This document shows, piece after piece, positions 9,279 to 63,571 of a DNA stretch of 64,000 nt. Every line of letters begins with the position of its first letter. Within the stretch, counting starts at the first letter, position 1. A program made the position numbers and the translations under genes. This DNA is from Actinomadura graeca. Lineage in GTDB: Bacteria > Actinomycetota > Actinomycetes > Streptosporangiales > Streptosporangiaceae. The DNA lies in the NCBI RefSeq assembly GCF_019175365.1, contig NZ_CP059572.1:8308001-8372000 (forward strand), given 5' to 3'. The notes beneath the pieces were generated by a model that made no database searches, had not been told where the DNA came from, and was given only the letters and a program-made list of their open reading frames with translations.

Positions 9279-9704
9279 TCAGGGGACAGGCCCGAACCGG
9301 GTGTCCTCGTCCACCAACGCCACCGCCCGGGCTTCTGCCTCCGACACCCCTCTGACACCCCGCAGGTTCGCGTCCCGCAGGTCCGCGTCCCGCAGGATCG
9401 CGCTCCGCAGGTTCGCGTCCCGCAGGTCCGGGTCCCGCAGGTCCGCGCCCCGCAGGGTCGCGCCCCACAGGTCCGCGTCCCACAGGACCGCGTCCCGCAG
9501 GTCCGCGCGCTGCAGGTTCGCGCTTCGCAGGTCCGCGCCCCGAAGGTTCGCGCCCCGCAGAGCCGCGCGCTGCAGGTGCGCGCCCCGCAGGTGCGCGTCC
9601 CGCAGGTGCGCGTCCCGCAGGTGCGCGTCCCGCAGGTGCGCGTCCCGCAGGTGCGCGTCCCGCAGGTCCGCGTGCTGCAAGTTCGCGTCTCCTAGTCGCC
9701 GACC
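9279..9704 (-). pseudogene. Pentapeptide-repeat protein, 5' truncated
   Basis: On the minus strand about 23 consecutive A(D/N)LxX pentapeptides are readable, beginning ANLQHADLRDAHLRDAHLRD. The DNA includes a perfect 15-bp unit repeated about five times. The C-terminus is EARAVALVDEDTRFGPVP. Such repeats fold into a right-handed beta helix. Upstream of about 9704 the frame runs into antisense of the Tn3 transposase fragment, so the native N-terminus is lost. Other pentapeptide genes in the window share a starting block that is missing here. Confidence 0.65.
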
Positions 9705-12030: not shown

Positions 12031-15000
12031 GTGGCGGGTTCGGCGGGCGGGGACGTGGAGCGGGATTTCGCGGCGTTGATCGCTGAGCTGGCGCGGTTCC
12101 GGTCAGACCGGCTGGGGCGCGAGCCGTCCGACCGTGCCCTGGCCAAGGCCGCGGAGGTTTCCCCGATGACGGTGGGGGGCTGGCTGCGCGGTGACCGGTT
12201 CCCTCAGGAACTCGACAAACTGCTCAGGGTGGTGCGGGCCGTCGGGGCGCGGGCCGGGCGGGCCGGCCTTGCGCCGGCCGACCGGGCCAGAGTCGCCGCG
12301 CTGGTGGATCCGCAGCGGTGGAAGGACGCCTACCGGGCCGAGGCGGCCCGGCGCGCCCAGGGTACGCGCGCCGCGGTGGAGGCCGGGCAGGGCCGGGCGG
12401 CGCTGGAGGGGTTGCGGCCGGGGCGGCCGCTGTCGCAGGTCACCGATCCGTTCGCCTTGGAGGTGCACCGGCCGATCGCCCTGGAGCAGGCGGGGGACCT
12501 GCCGGTGCTGCCGCGGTATGTGCGGCGGGCGCACGACCGGCGGCTCGCCGAGGCCGTCGGCCGGGCCGCCGGCGGGGGCAGTGTGATGGCGGTGCTGGTG
12601 GCCGGGTCGTCGGCGGGCAAGACCCGGGCCTGCTGGGAGGCCCTGCGGCCGTTACGCGACCGCCCCGAGCAGTGGCGGTTGTGGCATCCGCTGGATCCGG
12701 CCCGGTCCCAGGCGGCGGCAGGGGACCTGGAGCGGGTGGGCCCGTACACGGTGGTGTGGCTGAACGAGACCCAGGAGTACCTGAGCGGTGAGGGAGGGGA
12801 GCGGGTCGCGGCCAAGCTGCGCACCCTTCTGGCCGACCCGGGCCGGGCGCCGGTCCTGGTGCTGGGAACCCTGTGGCCCCGCCACCACACCGACCTGACC
12901 CGCCAACCCGGTTCGCAGGTGAGCCAGGTGCTGGACGGCACCCTCATCGAGGTACCCGGGACCTTCACCGGCGCCGACCTGGACGCCCTGCGGCAGGCCG
13001 CCGGAGATGATGCCCGGCTGGGGCAGGCGGCCGACCGCGCCGAGGACGGGCAGATTACCCAGTACCTGGCCGGCGGGCCGGCGCTGCTGGAACGGCTGGC
13101 CGCCGCGCCGCCGGAGGCCAAGGCGCTCATCTGGGCGGCGATGGACGCCCGCCGGATGGGACACCGCAACGCCCTTCCCCAGGCGCTGCTGGAGGAGGCC
13201 GCCACGGCGTACCTGACCGACATCGAGTATGAGCGGCTGGGCGACGACTGGCTGGAACAGGCCCTGGCCTACGCCTGCGAACCGTGCAAGGGCGCCCGCG
13301 GGCCGGTCACCCGCATCCGACCGCGCCGCAACGACCGGCGGGGCCGCCGTACCGCCGCGGCCCCGCTGCCCGGCACCGGGCCGGTGTACCGGCTGGCCGA
13401 CTACCTCGACCAGCACGGCCGCACCACCCGCCACCACCAGATCACGCCCATCGGCTTCTGGGCCGCCGCGGCCGCCCATGCCCACCCCGCCGACATGGGC
13501 CGGCTGGGGGACGCCGCCTGGGCCCGGGGCCTGTACCGCGACGCCACCCAGCTCCACAAGAACTCCACCCTCCACGGCGACCCGGCGGCGGCATACACGC
13601 TCATCAAGCACCTGCATGCCCTGAATACCGACGATCACCGCCCCGCCGTACACGCCGCCGCGCACGCCCCCCTCGATGACCCGTACGCCGTCGCCTCCCT
13701 GCTGCGAGGGCTGCGGGAGGTGGGGGCGGGTGAGCAGGTGGCCGCGCTGGTGGCCCGTGATCCCGCCGCGCACGCCCCCCTCGACGACCCGCGCGCCGTC
13801 GCCTCCCTGCTGCGAGGGTTGCGGGAGGTGGGGGCGGGTGAGCAGGTGGCCGCGCTGGCCGGCCGGGCCGCCGCGCAGGTCTCCCTCGACGACCCGGACG
13901 CCGTCGCCTCCCTGCTGTACCGGTTGCGGAGGGTGGGGGCGGGTGAGCAGGTGGCCGCGCTGGCCGGCCGGGCCGCCGCGCAGGTCTCCCTCGACGACCC
14001 GTACGCCGTCATCTTCCTGCTGGAGGTGTTGCGGGAGGTGGGGGCGGGTGAGCAGGTGGCCGCGCTGGTGGCCCGTGATCCCGCCGCGCACGCCCTCCTC
14101 GACGACCCGCGCGCCGTCGCCTCCCTGCTGCAAGGGTTGCGGAGGGTGGGGGCGGGTGAGCAGGTGGCCGCGCTGGCCGGCCGGGCCACCGCGCAGGTCT
14201 CCCTCGACGACCCGCACACCATCGCCTCCCTGCTGTACCGGTTGCGGAGGGTGGGGGCGGGTGAGCAGGTGGCCGCGCTGGTGGCCCGTGATCCCGCCAC
14301 GCACGCCCCCCTCGACGACCCGGACGCCGTCGCCCGCCTGCTGCAAGGGTTGCGGGAGGTGGGGGCGGGTGAGCAGGTGGCCGCGCTGGTGGCCCGTGAT
14401 CCCGCCACGCAGGTCTCCCTCGACAACCCGGACGCCGTCGCCTTCCTGCTGCGAGGGTTGCGGAGGGTGGGGGCGGGTGAGCAGGTGGCCGCGCTGGTGG
14501 CCCGTGATCCCGCCACGCAGGTCTCCCTCTACGACCCGCGCGCCGTCGCCTCCCTGCTGCGAGGGCTGCGGGAGGTGGGGGCGGGTGAGCAGGTGGTCGC
14601 GCTGGCTGGCCGGGCCGCCGCGCAGGTCTCCCTCGACAACCCGCGCGCCGTCGCCTCCCTGCTGCAAGGGTTGCGGAGGGTGGGGGCGGGTGAGCAGGTG
14701 GTCGCGCTGGCTGGCCGGGCCGCCGCGCAGGTCTCCCTCGACAACCCGGACGCCGTCGCCTCCCTGCTGCAAGGGTTGCGGAGGGTGGGGGCGGGTGAGC
14801 AGGTGGTCGCGCTGGCTGGCCGGGCCGCCGCGCAGGTCTCCCTCGACAACCCGGACGCCGTCGCCTCCCTGCTGCAAGGGTTGCGGGAGGTGGGGGCGGG
14901 TGAGCAGGTGGCCGCGCTGGTGGCCCGTGATCCCGCCGCGCAGGTCTCCCTCGACAGCCCGGACGCCGTCATCTACCTGCTGCAAGGGTTGCGGGAGGTG

Positions 15001-15483
15001 GGGGCGGGTGAGCAGGTGGCCGCGCTGGCTGGCCGGGCCGCCGCGCACGCCCCCCTCGACAACCCGGACGCCGTCGCCTCCCTGCTGGAGATGCTGCGGG
15101 GGGTTGGGGCGGGTGAGCAGGTGACCGCGCTGGTAGCCCGTGATCCCGCCGCACAGGTCCCCCTCGACGACCCGCGCGCCGTCGCCTCCCTGCTGGAGAT
15201 GCTGCGGGGGGTTGGGGCGGGTGAGCAGGTGACCGCGCTGGTAGCCCGTGATCCCGCCGCACAGGTCCCCCTCGACGACCCGCGCGCCGTCGCCTCCCTG
15301 CTGGAGATGCTGCGGAGAGTCGGGGCGGATGAGCAGGTAGCTGCACTGACCGACTTGTTGCCAGCCGCAGGCTTGTTCGAGGGGTTTCTTGAGGTTGGTG
15401 ATCGCAGGGTGCGGTATCGGTTCGGGCGGGAATCAGATGATGGGCGCCCCGCCGAGCCCTGGGGGTGGGAAGACCTGGAGTGA
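12031..15483 (+). CDS. XRE-STAND ATPase with 16 near-identical C-terminal repeats
   Basis: A 1150-residue protein from GTG 12031 (GGGAGGG 7 bp upstream; GTG12028 also possible). Residues about 30-75 form a helix-turn-helix (PSDRALAKAAEVSPMTVGGW). Residues about 188-200 give a P-loop, VLVAGSSAGKTRACWEAL, and YTVVWLNETQEYL about 50 residues later is Walker-B-like. A helical/winged region to residue about 540 is followed by 16 repeats of 35-36 residues (consensus QVSLDDPDAVASLLxGLRxV, then GAGEQVAALVARDPAA). The domain order DNA-binding, NTPase, superhelical repeats suits a STAND signalling switch that senses a ligand through the repeats. Several known STAND proteins defend against phage; a defence role here is inference. 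Confidence 0.8.
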   Translation: MAGSAGGDVERDFAALIAELARFRSDRLGREPSDRALAKAAEVSPMTVGGWLRGDRFPQELDKLLRVVRAVGARAGRAGLAPADRARVAALVDPQRWKDAYRAEAARRAQGTRAAVEAGQGRAALEGLRPGRPLSQVTDPFALEVHRPIALEQAGDLPVLPRYVRRAHDRRLAEAVGRAAGGGSVMAVLVAGSSAGKTRACWEALRPLRDRPEQWRLWHPLDPARSQAAAGDLERVGPYTVVWLNETQEYLSGEGGERVAAKLRTLLADPGRAPVLVLGTLWPRHHTDLTRQPGSQVSQVLDGTLIEVPGTFTGADLDALRQAAGDDARLGQAADRAEDGQITQYLAGGPALLERLAAAPPEAKALIWAAMDARRMGHRNALPQALLEEAATAYLTDIEYERLGDDWLEQALAYACEPCKGARGPVTRIRPRRNDRRGRRTAAAPLPGTGPVYRLADYLDQHGRTTRHHQITPIGFWAAAAAHAHPADMGRLGDAAWARGLYRDATQLHKNSTLHGDPAAAYTLIKHLHALNTDDHRPAVHAAAHAPLDDPYAVASLLRGLREVGAGEQVAALVARDPAAHAPLDDPRAVASLLRGLREVGAGEQVAALAGRAAAQVSLDDPDAVASLLYRLRRVGAGEQVAALAGRAAAQVSLDDPYAVIFLLEVLREVGAGEQVAALVARDPAAHALLDDPRAVASLLQGLRRVGAGEQVAALAGRATAQVSLDDPHTIASLLYRLRRVGAGEQVAALVARDPATHAPLDDPDAVARLLQGLREVGAGEQVAALVARDPATQVSLDNPDAVAFLLRGLRRVGAGEQVAALVARDPATQVSLYDPRAVASLLRGLREVGAGEQVVALAGRAAAQVSLDNPRAVASLLQGLRRVGAGEQVVALAGRAAAQVSLDNPDAVASLLQGLRRVGAGEQVVALAGRAAAQVSLDNPDAVASLLQGLREVGAGEQVAALVARDPAAQVSLDSPDAVIYLLQGLREVGAGEQVAALAGRAAAHAPLDNPDAVASLLEMLRGVGAGEQVTALVARDPAAQVPLDDPRAVASLLEMLRGVGAGEQVTALVARDPAAQVPLDDPRAVASLLEMLRRVGADEQVAALTDLLPAAGLFEGFLEVGDRRVRYRFGRESDDGRPAEPWGWEDLE
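13661..15372 (+). repeat. Sixteen tandem 105/108-bp coding repeats
   Basis: The repeat units encode 35 or 36 residues in frame and are almost identical in DNA, including GTGGGGGCGGGTGAGCAGGT in nearly every unit. Two alternating tail variants occur (ALVARDPAA and ALAGRAAA). Because multiples of three are conserved, unit number can change without breaking the protein. Confidence 0.9.
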
Positions 15484-29325: not shown

Positions 29326-29699
29326 CAGCGGCACACGCCGTCGCGCACGCCCCGCTCGACCACCCGGGCGCCGTCGCCTCCCTGCTGAAGGGGTTGCGGG
29401 AGGTGGGGGCGGATGAGCAGGTGGCCGCATTGGCCAGCCGGGCCGCCGCGCACGTCTCCCTCGACCACCCGTACGACGTCGCCTTCCTGCTGGAGGGGTT
29501 GCGGGAGGTGGGGGCGGTTGAGCAGGTGGCCGCGCTGGTGGCCTGTGACCCCGCCGCACACGTCTCCCTCGACAACCCGGGCGCCGTCGCCCCCCTGTTG
29601 TACGAGTTGCGGAGGGCGGAGGCGGATGAGCAGGTGGCCGCATTGGCCAGCCGGGCCGCCGCGCACGGCTACACCCTCTCGCGCGCCATGGCCGAGTAG
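29310..29699 (+). pseudogene. Orphan block of XRE-STAND repeats
   Basis: The plus strand reads DDHRPAAHAVAHAPLDHPGA then three repeats (AVASLLKGLREVGADEQVAA and variants), ending AHGYTLSRAMAE and TAG at 29697-29699. The entry sequence DDHRPA.HA.AHAPLD is the same as the entry to the repeats at 13.64 kb. It is therefore a copied 3' piece of a paralogue, with substitutions such as GADEQV/GAVEQV. It has no start of its own. Confidence 0.75.
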
Positions 29700-32278: not shown

Positions 32279-32462
32279 TGTCTAGCGGGGCCGTGCCGCT
32301 AGGACGTCCCGGCCCGCTAGAGGACGTCTCAGCGCGTCCCCGGAACGTCCCGGCCGGACGCCGGGCACGAGCACCAGAGGAGCGCGGCCGCGCGCAGCGT
32401 CCAGGTCACCGGCTGCCGAGACCGGTGCCCTGCCGTATTCGACTGGTCGTATTCGCGCGGCG
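32279..32462 (+). repeat. Long dispersed repeat, left copy (inverted partner at 63.4-63.57 kb)
   Basis: About 180 bp (CTAGCGGGGCCGTGCCGCTA..., several GGACGTC(C/T) boxes, then the CGTATTCG element) matches the reverse complement of 63393-63571. The right copy has an extra 13-bp GGACGTC unit. The two copies face each other across 31 kb. Confidence 0.8.
32418..32457 (+). repeat. CGTATTCG dispersed element, copy a
   Basis: GAGACCGGTGCCCTGCCGTA followed by TTCGACTGGTCGTATTCG. It has two CGTATTCG boxes 14 bp apart. Shares its core with copies at 54.2, 54.77, 62.66 and 63.4 kb. No small TM gene lies next to this copy. Confidence 0.75.
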
Positions 32463-36022: not shown

Positions 36023-36763
36023 CTACGCGGGTCCACCGGGATCCTCGCCTACCACCTCGTACACGCCCCGCGCGACCTGCGCCGACCGCTGCCGTATCCC
36101 GGTCTCCCAGGCCGCGGGCCACCGCGTCTCCCCCCAGGACCCGGGCCGATCCTGGAGTCCCTCCGCCTCGGCCCCCGTCCAGCGCGCCCGCAGCAGCCGG
36201 GTGCCGATCAAGATCGCCTCGGTCAGATCCGCGCCGGTCAGGTCCGCGCCGGACAGGTCCGCGCCGGACAGGTCCGCGCCGGACAGGTCCGTGTCGGACA
36301 GGTCCGTGTCGGACAGGTCCGCGTGGATCAGGTCCGCGCCGGACAGGTACGCGCCGGACAGGTACGCGCCGCCCAGGTCCACGCCGTTCAGCCGCACCTG
36401 GGACAGGCGGACATCGCCCAGGAGACCGGACCAGAGAGAAGACCCGCGCCCAGACAGGTTCGCGCCGGTGAGGTCGGCACCGGTGAGGTCGGCACCGAGC
36501 AGGTTCGCGCCGGACAGGTCCGCGCCGACCAGGCGCGTGCGGATCAGACGCCCGTCGGCCAGGCCCGCGTCGGCCAGGTTCGCGCGGGTCAGATCCGCGC
36601 CGGTCAGGTCCGCGCCGGACAGGTCCGCGCCGGTGAGATCCGCGCCGAGCAGGTTCGCACCGGCCAGGTCCACGCCATACAGGTCCGCGCCGGGCAGGGC
36701 GGCGTAGGGATGGATGCGGTCCCGGGTGATGCCGGGCGCGATCTCCTCGTCGTCCTCATCCAC
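36023..36763 (-). CDS. Pentapeptide-repeat protein
   Basis: 246 residues. The N-terminal block DEDDEEIAPGITRDRIHPYA leads into about 33 pentapeptides (ADLYG VDLAG ANLLG ADLTG ...), with one non-repeat break (GRGSSLWSGLLGDVRLSQ). A non-repeat tail follows (ARWTGAEAEGLQDRPGSWGE...). Right-handed beta-helix proteins of this kind include DNA mimics such as MfpA/Qnr and conflict-associated adaptors; no function can be chosen. The same N-terminal block occurs at 55.8 kb. The frame continues upstream as GRRLV, so the real start may be a few codons earlier. Confidence 0.8.
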   Translation of the reverse strand: MDEDDEEIAPGITRDRIHPYAALPGADLYGVDLAGANLLGADLTGADLSGADLTGADLTRANLADAGLADGRLIRTRLVGADLSGANLLGADLTGADLTGANLSGRGSSLWSGLLGDVRLSQVRLNGVDLGGAYLSGAYLSGADLIHADLSDTDLSDTDLSGADLSGADLSGADLTGADLTEAILIGTRLLRARWTGAEAEGLQDRPGSWGETRWPAAWETGIRQRSAQVARGVYEVVGEDPGGPA

Positions 36764-54191: not shown

Positions 54192-54197
54192 GCACGC

Positions 54198-54239
54198 GCG
54201 GGGACCGGTGCCCTGCCGTATCGACTGTGTCGTATTCGG
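54198..54239 (+). repeat. CGTATTCG dispersed element, copy b
   Basis: GGGACCGGTGCCCTGCCGTA then TCGACTGTGTCGTATTCGGG. It lies between the GNAT stop and the end of the minus-strand TM gene at 54246, about 7 bp beyond that gene's stop. Confidence 0.75.
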
Positions 54240-54245
54240 GCAGTG

Positions 54246-54698
54246 TCAGCAGCCCTGGAGCTCAACTCGGACGACGGCTTGAAGCTGAATAGTGATCTCC
54301 GCAACCTCGCCGTCGTTCTGACCGCGGTGAGCGCCAAGCCAGGCGTCTGCACCAGCGAGCACGCGTTCGCTTCCGAACGCCCGGACAGCGATAAGTTCGT
54401 CCAACTCCATCTCGATGCGCTTGGTTCGGGGCCTCTGCTGATCGAACTGCTGGAGCTTGTCGTGTGCTCCCTTCGCCTCGTAGTCGGCCCGGCGCCCCAG
54501 CAGGTCAATGCAGCGGAGAGCGGCCAGGTAGGCATCCCGCCACTCCCGAAACAGGCGTGCTTGCTGCTCGGCTGCACGGTTCTGCTCAACCATGTGCTCG
54601 GCATGGCGGCGGCTCTGGGCACCAGCCAGCCAGGTGAAAACGACACCGAGACCACCTGAAGCCGAAGTGGCGACAGGCGCGACCCATTCCCAAGCCAT
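54246..54698 (-). CDS. Small single-TM protein in a repeat-bounded unit
   Basis: 150 residues from ATG 54698 (GTG54746 is possible). A TM helix at residues about 4-26 (EWVAPVATSASGGLGVVFTW L) is followed by a cytosolic helical/coiled part (RRHAEHMVEQNRAAEQQARL, REWRDAYLAALRCIDLL, ELDELIAVRAFGS). It is bounded by dispersed elements at 54.2 and 54.77 kb. The gene at 62886 has the same design and the same boundary elements. Confidence 0.65.
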   Translation of the reverse strand: MAWEWVAPVATSASGGLGVVFTWLAGAQSRRHAEHMVEQNRAAEQQARLFREWRDAYLAALRCIDLLGRRADYEAKGAHDKLQQFDQQRPRTKRIEMELDELIAVRAFGSERVLAGADAWLGAHRGQNDGEVAEITIQLQAVVRVELQGC

Positions 54699-54767
54699 GT
54701 ATCGATGTTCACCCACCTCGGTGCTCCAAAGCATCGTGCCGACCACGACCGCAACTGGCCCGACGGC

Positions 54768-54796
54768 TACACAGACCGGTGCCCTGTCGTATTCGG
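54768..54796 (+). repeat. CGTATTCG dispersed element, copy c
   Basis: ACACAGACCGGTGCCCTGTC then GTATTCGGG. Single box version. It lies upstream of the minus-strand TM gene and after the end of the gene at 54814. Confidence 0.7.
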
Positions 54797-54813
54797 GTGA
54801 GCTCTGGGGGGTT

Positions 54814-55197
54814 TCATGGCTTGGGGCAGTTGCAAGAGAGCGAGCTTTCGACGACCAGCGATCCGTAGGCGACCCATCCAGGCAGGCTGTTGGCCAGGGG
54901 ACCTGCGGCTAACCGGACCGTGCTGAGCCTGAATGAACAGTACAGATGCGGGCGATCATGTGATGCATGGCTGGACATGTAGTCAGACTTGGATTGTTCG
55001 TCGGCGTACTTAGCTGCGGATTGCTCTGCTTTGGCATTCAGGTCGTTAAGGGCTGCTTCCGCGGTAATTCCTTCGCCGAGGAGTAGGTCGTAAGGCTGGG
55101 CTTGGGTGGAGTGGGACATCAGCTGTAGCAGCGGACTATCGAAGGTTGTGCTGGTCAGGTGCGGCCTCACGCGGTAGGGGATTCCGGAGGTTGTCAT
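54814..55197 (-). CDS. Uncharacterised soluble protein following a recombinase C-terminus
   Basis: 127 residues. ATG 55197 has AGGAAGG 8 bp upstream. It has a helical middle (AEAALNDLNAKAEQSAAKYA DEQSKSDY) and a Ser/Leu-rich end. Not recognised. Its start lies within the end of the tyrosine recombinase remnant, so it is probably translated by coupling, as is the gene at 62886. Confidence 0.55.
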   Translation of the reverse strand: MTTSGIPYRVRPHLTSTTFDSPLLQLMSHSTQAQPYDLLLGEGITAEAALNDLNAKAEQSAAKYADEQSKSDYMSSHASHDRPHLYCSFRLSTVRLAAGPLANSLPGWVAYGSLVVESSLSCNCPKP

Positions 55198-55648
55198 GGG
55201 TGCGCCTTCCTGATCGGGGGTAGCGGTTCCAGGTTCCGCCGGCGGCGGTGCGGTGCTTGGTGGCGGTGTTGTGGTGGTAGCCGAGTGCTTGGGCGACGAC
55301 GGGCGCGGGAGCTTGGAGGACGAACTGGCGGAAGGCGGCGGTGCGGGTCTGGGCGACCGGTAGTCCGAGTGCGCGTAGCTGCTGCAGGAAGGCGCCCGCG
55401 GAGAGCGGTTGTCCGGCGCGGCCGCCGGGGAACAGCCAGTCGCTGTCGGGGTTGGTGGCGGTGTTCATGTTGGCGCGGTTGGCGGCGAGCGTGGTGAGCA
55501 TCGTGGCGAATGGTTCGGGCACCGGGGTGGGCGGATCGCCCAGGCGAAGCGATACCCGTCCATGGTGTTCGGAGACGTCTGCGATGGTCAGCCGGGTGAG
55601 TCGGCTGACCGGTTGGGCGTAGGGCAGCACCAGGCGCGTACCGTTCAA
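55136..55648 (-). pseudogene. Tyrosine recombinase-like C-terminal fragment
   Basis: Minus strand: NGTRLVLPYAQPVSRLTRLT, IADVSEHHGRVSLRLGDPPT PVPEPFA, DSDWLFPGGRAGQPLSAGAF, then RQFVLQAPAPVVAQALGYHH NTATKHRTAAGGTWNRYP. The layout matches the tail of an actinobacterial integrase/recombinase group in which an HTH-like AQALGYHxNTxxKH end replaces the usual catalytic Tyr region. The N-terminal half is missing; upstream sequence is a pentapeptide gene. A second copy of the tail lies at 62755. Confidence 0.65.
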
Positions 55649-55848
55649 GGTTCGCCGACCAGGTTTGCGCGTGTCAGGTGCGCGCCGTTCAAATCCGCGC
55701 CGGTTAGGTTCGCGCCCTTCAGGTTCGCGTCGGTCAGGTCCGCGTCGGTCAGGTCGGCGTAGGGGTGGATGCGGTCCCGAGTGATACTGGGCGCGATCTC
55801 CTCGTCGTCCTCATCCACCAGCCGCCGCCCGCCGAAGTCCGCACGCAT
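55645..55848 (-). pseudogene. Pentapeptide-repeat gene, 5' piece
   Basis: Minus strand: GGRRLVDEDDEEIAPSITRD RIHPYADLTDADLTDANLKG ANLTGADLNGAHLTRANLVG, then a stop. The first 20 residues equal those of the pentapeptide gene at 36 kb. After nine repeats the sequence joins the recombinase fragment, so the gene is 3' truncated. Confidence 0.7.
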
Positions 55849-62635: not shown

Positions 62636-62656
62636 GGCTGCAGATCACCTTCGACA

Positions 62657-62706
62657 CGCCGACCGAATACGACCCATACGAATACGGCAGGACACCGGTC
62701 GACCAC
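62657..62706 (-). repeat. CGTATTCG dispersed element, copy d
   Basis: Reverse complement: GTCGACCGGTGTCCTGCCGT then ATTCGTATGGGTCGTATTCG GTCGG. Two boxes, in the same orientation relative to the TM gene at 62886 as copy c has to its gene. Confidence 0.75.
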
Positions 62707-62735
62707 GTCGTATTGCATCCGGCGCGAACATGACA

Positions 62736-62889
62736 CGGTCGGCAACTCGTCCCCCAAGCCCCCGCGCCCGTCGTCGCTCAAGCCCTCGGCTACCACCACG
62801 GAACCGTGCCCAAGCACCGCACCGCCGCCGGCGGAACCTGGGACCGCTATCCCACGACACGCACGCCGAAATCGAGGAAACGCCCATGA
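62736..62889 (+). pseudogene. Tyrosine recombinase C-terminal scrap
   Basis: Plus strand: RQLVPQAPAPVVAQALGYHH GTVPKHRTAAGGTWDRYPTT RTPKSRKRP and a TGA at 62887-62889, overlapping the ATG of the next gene (ATGA). Over the first 40 residues it is nearly identical to the tail at 55.2 kb. Confidence 0.7.
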
Positions 62890-63368
62890 ATTGGTCCGTC
62901 GTCGGCCCCGCCGTCTTCTCACTCATCGGTGTCACACTCGGAACCAGCGGAACACTCATCGGTCAGTACCTCACGACACGCACGACCAAGGCGCAGGCCC
63001 TCGCCGAGCGCCGGACCGCCCTCCGCGCCGAGCGAAAGACTGCGATCCTTGAGTTCATGGAGACCGCCAAGCAGGTCGAGCGGTTCATCGAACAACGTGT
63101 CCACTCGGGCGAGCGGCCGGAGGGCTCCGTCGAGCTCACCAACCGCATGTGGTTCCTCCAGCAGTGCGTGGACCTCGTGTCGACCGCCCCTGTGCGTAAC
63201 ACCGTCACCGACTACGCCGAGGGCCTTCACAGCCTCCTCTACCAAGAGCTCCCTACCGAGCGCCACGTCTGGGCGCTGATGAGTGAGAAGCGGCAACCGT
63301 TCGTCGATTCAGCCCGCGTAGAACTCGGCACCGCCACCAAGGAACTCGGGACTCCCGAACGCCCGTAG
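62886..63368 (+). CDS. Small single-TM protein in a repeat-bounded unit
   Basis: 160 residues; ATG 62886 follows GAGGAAACGCCC and overlaps the recombinase scrap's stop. A TM helix at residues about 6-28 (VGPAVFSLIGVTLGTSGTLI GQYL) is followed by a charged helical region (ALAERRTALRAERKTAILEF METAKQVERFIEQ) and NRMWFLQQCVDLVSTAPVRN. The design matches the gene at 54246, and it is also bounded by dispersed elements. No function is recognised. Confidence 0.65.
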   Translation: MNWSVVGPAVFSLIGVTLGTSGTLIGQYLTTRTTKAQALAERRTALRAERKTAILEFMETAKQVERFIEQRVHSGERPEGSVELTNRMWFLQQCVDLVSTAPVRNTVTDYAEGLHSLLYQELPTERHVWALMSEKRQPFVDSARVELGTATKELGTPERP

Positions 63369-63392
63369 GCGGAGGCCCTTCATCGGCCGATA

Positions 63393-63571
63393 CGCCGAAC
63401 CGATACGACACAGGCGAATACGACAGGGCGCCGGTCTCGGCAACCGGTGCCTGGCACGCTGCCCGTGCCCGACGTCCGGCCGCGACGTCCGGCCGGGACG
63501 TCCCGGGGAAGCGCTGAGACGTCCTCTAGCGGACCGGGACGTCCTAGCGGCACGCCCCCGCTAGACCTAGG
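63393..63571 (-). repeat. Long dispersed repeat, right copy, containing CGTATTCG element copy e
   Basis: Inverted match to 32279-32462. It includes the element GAGACCGGCGCCCTGTCGTA TTCGCCTGTGTCGTATCGG (about 63400-63445) followed by several GGACGTCC-type boxes. It lies 25 bp beyond the TM gene. Confidence 0.8.

Follow-up and report, generated by a model that had tools for sequence, protein, structure and literature searches.

The 38-bp element bracketing small genes in Actinomadura graeca is probably the right end of an actinobacterial transposon family moved by tyrosine recombinases

Transposons of the Tn554 type have a third gene related to tnpC, and their joined ends are separated by a spacer of 6-7 nt. 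In integrons, one-gene units are arranged in arrays, each site lying 3' of its gene and all in the same orientation. The Tn554 group, as described in part in PMC12486829, has an operon in which tyrosine recombinase genes are accompanied by a small third gene, and it inserts site specifically. In the same description, the circle ends of Tn552-II of Staphylococcus are joined via a 7-bp spacer, and extra internal att copies occur in the group, perhaps remnants of an ancestral form. The actinobacterial transposons related to Tn554 that are set out in PMC3414803 possess one abnormally long recombinase of 611-828 aa. In GInts, a recombinase operon occupies the 5' end, variable cargo follows from the last stop of the operon, the 3' end is short and a partner of the HLH type is present (PMC5385486); SE elements have two integrases with further core genes and a circular form (PMC10214605).

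The window analysed here, a 64,000-nt stretch of the 8.98-Mb genome of Actinomadura graeca, contains a 38-bp element that is probably the right end (RE) of an actinobacterial transposon family moved by tyrosine recombinases. The family is likely to consist of transposons with the gene order int1-HTH-int2 and with cargo between int2 and the RE, of which the window would hold decayed units. The original prediction had taken the element for a free-standing cassette site; this reading gave way to that of a transposon right end whose machinery is of a known type, comprising two tyrosine-recombinase-type proteins and an HTH protein.

The likeness to the Tn554 group is one of description. Two tyrosine-recombinase genes in one operon are found here as well, whereas the int1-HTH-int2 order, the XRE-type HTH, the two-box RE, a cargo of mostly about one gene and the tandem REs differ. 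The nearest published statement is that on the Tn554-related class in PMC3414803, which, in the part of that source concerned, is likewise mostly actinobacterial, both plasmid-borne and chromosomal, with one short and one longer recombinase-type protein. Its long partner is larger, however, at 611-828 aa as against 450 aa (L042) and 503 aa (L230) for int2, and here an HTH gene lies between. Membership of that class was rejected on these int2 lengths and on BLASTP comparisons of int2 and int1 with an 819-aa protein of L234, which revealed no meaningful similarity (best E values 0.036 and 0.079). The gene for this protein follows a tyrosine recombinase gene in L234:1-3640, beside a relative of the methyltransferase cargo of L214 and L230, and the protein is presumably of the general kind described in PMC3414803. 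GInts, as far as PMC5385486 describes them, share the 5' recombinase operon, the cargo after the last stop, the short 3' end and the small HLH-type partner, but they have three integrases plus ginD, cargo of 2.5 to at least 70 kb and flanking imperfect direct repeats of 10-11 nt; the assignment was rejected as the complete operon here is int1, HTH and int2. A RIT element, with three adjacent tyrosine recombinases, was rejected because the middle gene encodes an XRE-type HTH. SE elements resemble the present family by description in their two integrases, further core genes and, if the circle proposed below is formed, circular form, but their core is intA-tfp-intB plus srap, and in the relevant part of PMC10214605 the tfp-srap synteny is reported for Gammaproteobacteria only. 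The present family appears to work like Tn554-type elements and GInts, and it superficially resembles the integron, with one-gene cassettes and a site 3' of the gene as judged from gap sizes and order. Among the matches listed, no title or abstract of an openly licensed paper mentioned a transposon of the int1-HTH-int2 kind that has arrays of REs or carries a single cargo gene, which is weak evidence of absence.

The major data for the window are the copies of the element itself. The core pattern (≤3 mismatches) was found at 32420+, 54203+, 54774+, 62700- and 63436-, and the largest count in 100 shuffles of the window was 0. The same pattern matched just these five copies in the entire genome, as did a sequence model of the element at E≤0.1, which was built partly from four of them. 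The dispersed repeat of the original prediction is thus real, with coordinates that deviate by 2-22 bp according to the minus-strand end meant. At each of two loci, as had been predicted, two copies in the same orientation bracket a small gene, of 166 and 160 aa, respectively, and the element is antisense to that gene both times; the single transmembrane segment ascribed to both products corresponds to one hydrophobic segment each, judged by eye. The features of both loci are collected in Table 1.

Table 1. Features of the putative transposon units in the window (LE, left end; RE, right end; strand in transposon direction for the ends)
Feature	Position	Strand	Remarks
RE	32420..32457	-	1-bp deletion between boxes; adjoins dispersed repeat R2 (32280-32419)
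RE downstream of 166-aa gene	54203..54240	-	inner box with 1-bp deletion
Cargo gene, 166 aa	54246..54746	-	one hydrophobic segment (by eye); matched neither in Pfam nor in PADLOC
Half RE (one box + core)	54774..54799	-	
Cargo gene, 127 aa	54814..55197	-	after int2 tail; no family match
Truncated int2, C-terminal part	55136..55648	-	88% identity to int2 residues 295-440, Actinomadura sp. 6K520
XRE-type HTH gene, 299 aa	61736..62635	+	stop 65 bp ahead of RE outer end
RE of HTH unit	62655..62699	+	full length
Spacer, 7 nt, RE to next LE	62700..62706	.	
LE	62707..62743	+	32/37 identical to LE of Actinomadura sp. 6K520 element
int2 tail remnant, about last 45 residues	62744..62889	+	stop overlaps next start as ATGA
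Cargo gene, 160 aa	62886..63368	+	one hydrophobic segment (by eye)
RE closing 62707-63435 unit	63390..63435	+	full length; adjoins R2 (63437-63566)

The element occurs in further Actinomadura as well. A model of 16 copies gave 20 matches at E<1e-6 in 12 of 65 genus genomes, 16 of the 20 being the training copies. Exact matches among genome contigs numbered nine, two of them in alphaproteobacterial MAGs. The exact 18-bp core in G025 and G040:C48 had neither a second box nor int2 in the stretch fetched, and these matches look like chance or scraps. Core-only matches of this kind, with neither a second box nor int2, include L036 and L038.

The machinery was deduced from Actinomadura sp. 6K520 (L042), where int1 (403 aa), an HTH protein (109 aa) and int2 (450 aa) are encoded on one strand and int2 ends in the tail found in the window. 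Next come a 170-aa gene, an element, an ankyrin-repeat gene, an element and a third element, the elements being antisense and downstream, and the overall order is LE-[IS]-int1-HTH-int2-gene-RE-gene-RE-RE. The cognate Actinomadura LE was located by the LE matrix upstream of int1, with the IS in between; an IS-type transposase gene lies there at L042:6266-7180 in an element that is otherwise complete. No LE was recognisable between the REs of the pair at the ankyrin gene. The same operon is present in other Actinomadura and in other genera. Int1 matched the Pfam phage integrase family and the middle gene an XRE-type HTH (HTH_26, E=4e-17). Int2 fell below the Pfam cut-off, and a PDB sequence profile search with it returned nothing up to E=0.1, but its predicted model (mean pLDDT 87, pTM 0.63) matched Xer, Cre, lambda Int and Tn1549 Int, mostly over residues 168-446 and with modest, low whole-chain TM-scores. 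Int2 is accordingly modelled as a divergent recombinase that matches the tyrosine-recombinase fold. Residues R398 and Y439 were invariant in 40 sequences, so int2 may still be able to cut, although which protein cuts is something that we infer. Many int2 relatives carry a cysteine-rich N-terminal stretch, in one case with zinc-ribbon matches under the cut-offs.

The assignment of the element as a right end is supported by its placement relative to int2. In other loci, a related but different sequence was often observed about 50 bp past the int2 stop. Set side by side, the lineages have a common plan, consisting of a GAATACG-like box, a second box 15 bp on and CCRGT 15 bp further, and the window element is this plan read backwards. 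No hit of the RE matrix was obtained in 307 kb of base-shuffled sequence. Placement was determined in 54 loci picked by recombinase (20 from the genus, 20 from the family and 14 from plasmids), leaving out L200 (int2 replaced by an IS), L223, L229, L233 and L234 (plasmid loci matched by cargo), L196 and every locus picked for the element. The int2 C terminus was visible in 51 of the 54, and counting was confined to the 39 in which 340 or more int2 residues were aligned. An RE within 5 kb downstream on the same strand was observed in 31 of 39, as against 0/39 on the opposite strand and 1/39 for the upstream control. Thirteen of the 39 had also fed the matrix; outside matrix building, the figure was 18/26, rising to 17/20 at int2 identities of at least 42%. 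That the repeats are boundaries and belong with the recombinase, as had been proposed, is borne out. The data are comparative throughout, and the loci are a sample in which some served both to build and to count and some are near-copies of one another: L214-L216 are one element, and L235 and L238 are 99% alike over the whole stretch.

The distance from int2 to the first RE was 48-73 bp in 15 loci and 411-3750 bp in 16. For the gaps exceeding 120 bp from int2 or an RE to the next RE (n=24, not all independent), the median was 884 bp, or about one gene. Two or more REs were present in eight loci, three of which are the one element L214-L216 with its decayed inner RE. None was found by the matrix in 8 of the 39 loci, namely, L203, L213, L237 and five of the six loci of a divergent branch (<42% identity); the matrix detected an RE in the sixth, and related-looking sequences were seen in this branch by eye. 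In L204, one RE lies on the opposite strand, about 12 kb downstream.

At the 54-kb locus, the order is truncated int2, 127-aa gene, half RE, 166-aa gene and RE. LE searches at this RE pair and in L041 gave nothing over background. The recombinase tail APAPVVAQALGYHH was found at both loci, 88% and 75% identical to the int2 protein of Actinomadura sp. 6K520, and the two tails are the same sequence, as had been claimed. The layout differs in one respect: the tail at 54 kb lies outside the element pair, ahead of the 127-aa gene, while that at 62.7 kb is enclosed by the pair and overlaps the start of the gene. The recombinase sequence at both loci consists of decayed remnants, with no complete recombinase. 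A 42-residue int1 fragment, 83% identical, lies about 50 kb left of the window (G000:C1:8257376-8257501) and is a further remnant of the family. Mutually similar repeats were noted at 9358-9690, 36168-36705 and 55635-55760, the last of which reads as pentapeptide repeats and adjoins the truncated int2. The distant stretches 13645-15350 and 29337-29670 share tandem repeats with a unit of about 105 bp and a likeness of roughly 79-88%.

At the 62-kb locus, the 299-aa HTH gene is the probable cargo of a neighbouring unit, whose RE ends at 62699, 7 nt from the LE starting at 62707. In G062 (L195), a similar RE-LE junction was observed with 6 nt between. The spacer length is that of joined Tn552-II ends. 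The simplest reading of these RE-spacer-LE junctions would be insertion beside an RE. The window LE scored 14.9 with the first LE matrix, near the best shuffled score of 14.6, and was singled out because of its likeness to the L042 LE rather than by this score. The LE pattern (≤3 mismatches) had one match each in 7 of 65 genomes, that in A. graeca being the 62707 site, and the reversed control had 0/65. Since the LE at 62707 matches and an RE closes at 63435, the stretch 62707-63435 is, as read from its sequence, a unit with both ends, an int2 tail and one gene, without a recombinase. Of the two bracketed genes, only this one (62.9-63.4 kb) has both LE and RE. A protein search with the 160-aa product at E≤0.001 returned just itself, so movement of its gene is not traceable. 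Comparable units were found elsewhere: that after the junction in L195 has just an antisense gene and a degenerate RE seen by eye and missed by the matrix, and G040 has an LE-gene-RE unit with weak ends around an alpha/beta hydrolase gene, its LE with 3 mismatches and its half RE caught by the element model (E=0.0002) and missed by the matrix.

The limits of the transposon were deduced from a 4.1-kb element in three genera (G276, G068 and G202), which is 99.0-99.6% identical with different flanks. The identity stops on the left at an end that includes CGCCAATTGCATCGGATGCG and on the right at an RE whose last bases are CACCAGTA. Between two species (L040 and G037), the outer flank and RE are 90% identical and the inner content differs. 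Direct-repeat searches downstream of int2 were useful for the RE pairs of L042 and L085; what they yielded otherwise was mostly long internal repeats or unrelated pairs. At 32.4 and 63.4 kb, the RE adjoins the same dispersed repeat, R2. Besides the two window copies, R2 was observed in A. graeca at C2:3469-3577 and C3:14634-14741 and also in G059, with the motifs GGGACGTCC and CTAGCGG. The C2 and C3 copies lack an RE, and similarity begins at about the base adjoining the RE and extends outwards. R2 is a possible insertion target of the element, and the two junctions may represent two insertions at one preferred site or one duplicated insertion.

We propose that int1, int2 and the HTH protein would circularise the element by joining LE to RE across a spacer of 6-7 nt and that the circle would insert at a preferred site, sometimes beside a resident RE, with head-to-tail accumulation of units as the result. 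Cargo, usually about one gene, would lie between int2 and the RE. New cargo would probably be captured when a distal RE is used in place of the int2-adjacent one, the inner RE decaying after capture. Internally deleted LE-gene-RE units, some with an int2 tail, could be mobilised in trans. The comparative sequence data showed neither excision nor a circle nor a fresh insertion. A stronger proposal, which we put forward tentatively, is an actinobacterial cassette system built on transposon ends, in which single-gene LE-gene-RE units lacking recombinase genes are excised and inserted in trans by int1-HTH-int2, preferentially beside an RE already present, to give head-to-tail arrays, and alternative right ends permit cargo change. 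If true, this would be a functional counterpart of the integron, with double-stranded transposon ends in place of folded attC sites.

Exchange of cargo was deduced from mosaic elements. In the 4.1-kb element (L214-L216), a decayed RE directly after int2 is followed by the gene for a methyltransferase, a relic of the int2 tail and an RE in good condition. The same methyltransferase-tail-RE block is present in S. globosus, where the block is 87% and the recombinase module 67% identical (L214 against L230), and in S. hirsutus with no int2 in the stretch read. NBC_01001 likewise has a cargo-plus-RE block without int2. The recombinase modules of L214 and L235 are 90% identical and their cargo gave no match, and in two Streptomyces plasmid groups with related operons, this position is occupied by a NUDIX gene, a GNAT gene or various hypothetical genes. 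The inner RE was found at three stages of loss after capture: intact in L232, decayed in L214 and, by matrix, gone in L230 and L237. A GNAT acetyltransferase gene follows int2 in L232:4381-4890, between two intact REs, and in L237:6006-6515. Some cargo genes are antisense (L214, L230 and L195). About a dozen 147-bp tandem repeats underlie tetratricopeptide-repeat genes in L201:824-2756 (plasmid pSGE). Eight cargo and recombinase proteins gave no convincing defence match in PADLOC, an ankyrin protein having one candidate family at E=0.002. In keeping with the original prediction, cargo differs by place at fixed element orientation. Of the predicted cassette-like mobility, decayed transposon units with exchangeable cargo stand, and autonomous movement of cassettes is suggested by the mosaics and tandem junctions. 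The bracketed small genes look like interchangeable one-gene transposon cargo in shortened, partly head-to-tail copies.

The mosaics can also be produced by homologous recombination across shared int2-tail and RE stretches, with the recombinases moving whole elements only. This somewhat unlikely explanation is consistent with int2 tails and REs being the shared parts of the mosaics and with similarity stopping near the last bases of int2 or the RE. It does not account for the RE-spacer-LE junctions (window 62700 and L195), which are as site-specific joining would give, or for units with no recognisable int2 (L195, and L048 with weak ends).

The bracketed genes might instead be bystanders, with repeated same-site insertion, IS activity and deletions having left scraps round host genes. 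Such ordinary decay is unlikely, although much in the window fits it: three of the five REs are damaged, the 54-kb pair lacks an LE, both loci have IS-like transposase sequence beside them, and the searches of this genome detected int1 and int2 as fragments only, together with two unrelated-looking integrases at 34-36%. For the last reason, the window units are probably immobile now unless a helper arrives. Decay does not explain gaps that are mostly of about one gene, the occurrence of the methyltransferase/int2-tail/RE junction behind two diverged modules and, in S. hirsutus, away from int2, or a cargo-bearing unit that is whole in three genera.

A true integron, with an IntI-type integrase and attC-bearing cassettes, is very improbable: about one gene per site, sites 3' of genes in the same orientation and the three REs after int2 in L042 would suit it, but int1 scored 34.2 bits against a cut-off of 265 for the integron integrase (TIGR02249), the RE has no attC-like hairpin (z of +0.26 to +0.95 for five of six REs, not more stable than shuffles, and -1.89 for the sixth), and the RE, as a transposon end, has an LE as its counterpart. 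A reading unconnected with mobility, as a common promoter, terminator or REP-like repeat, is suggested by a short, intergenic element often soon after a stop codon but is scarcely credible given that the five copies in 9 Mb all lie inside 31 kb rather than scattered at random, that REs follow int2 on the same strand and that matching structure is present in plasmid transposons of other genera.

Transposons of the preferred kind, with int1-HTH-int2 and cargo ahead of an RE, are not uncommon. Int2 matches at E≤1e-30 were obtained in 58 of 298 family genomes and in 11 of 396 phylum genomes, A. graeca included; at E≤1e-5, 268 of 72,556 plasmid records matched, and in 196 of these the match covered 80% of the query or more. 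Among the plasmid matches listed, the matched feature was named 'hypothetical protein' in 23 of 40, and such elements are therefore easily overlooked. To our knowledge, the pickup and swap of cargo by tyrosine-recombinase transposons are poorly understood. This family keeps readable traces, in the form of decayed inner REs, intact outer REs, int2 tails and RE-spacer-LE junctions, so that cargo capture may be traced step by step, and the RE and LE motifs would locate the small cargo genes of these transposons.
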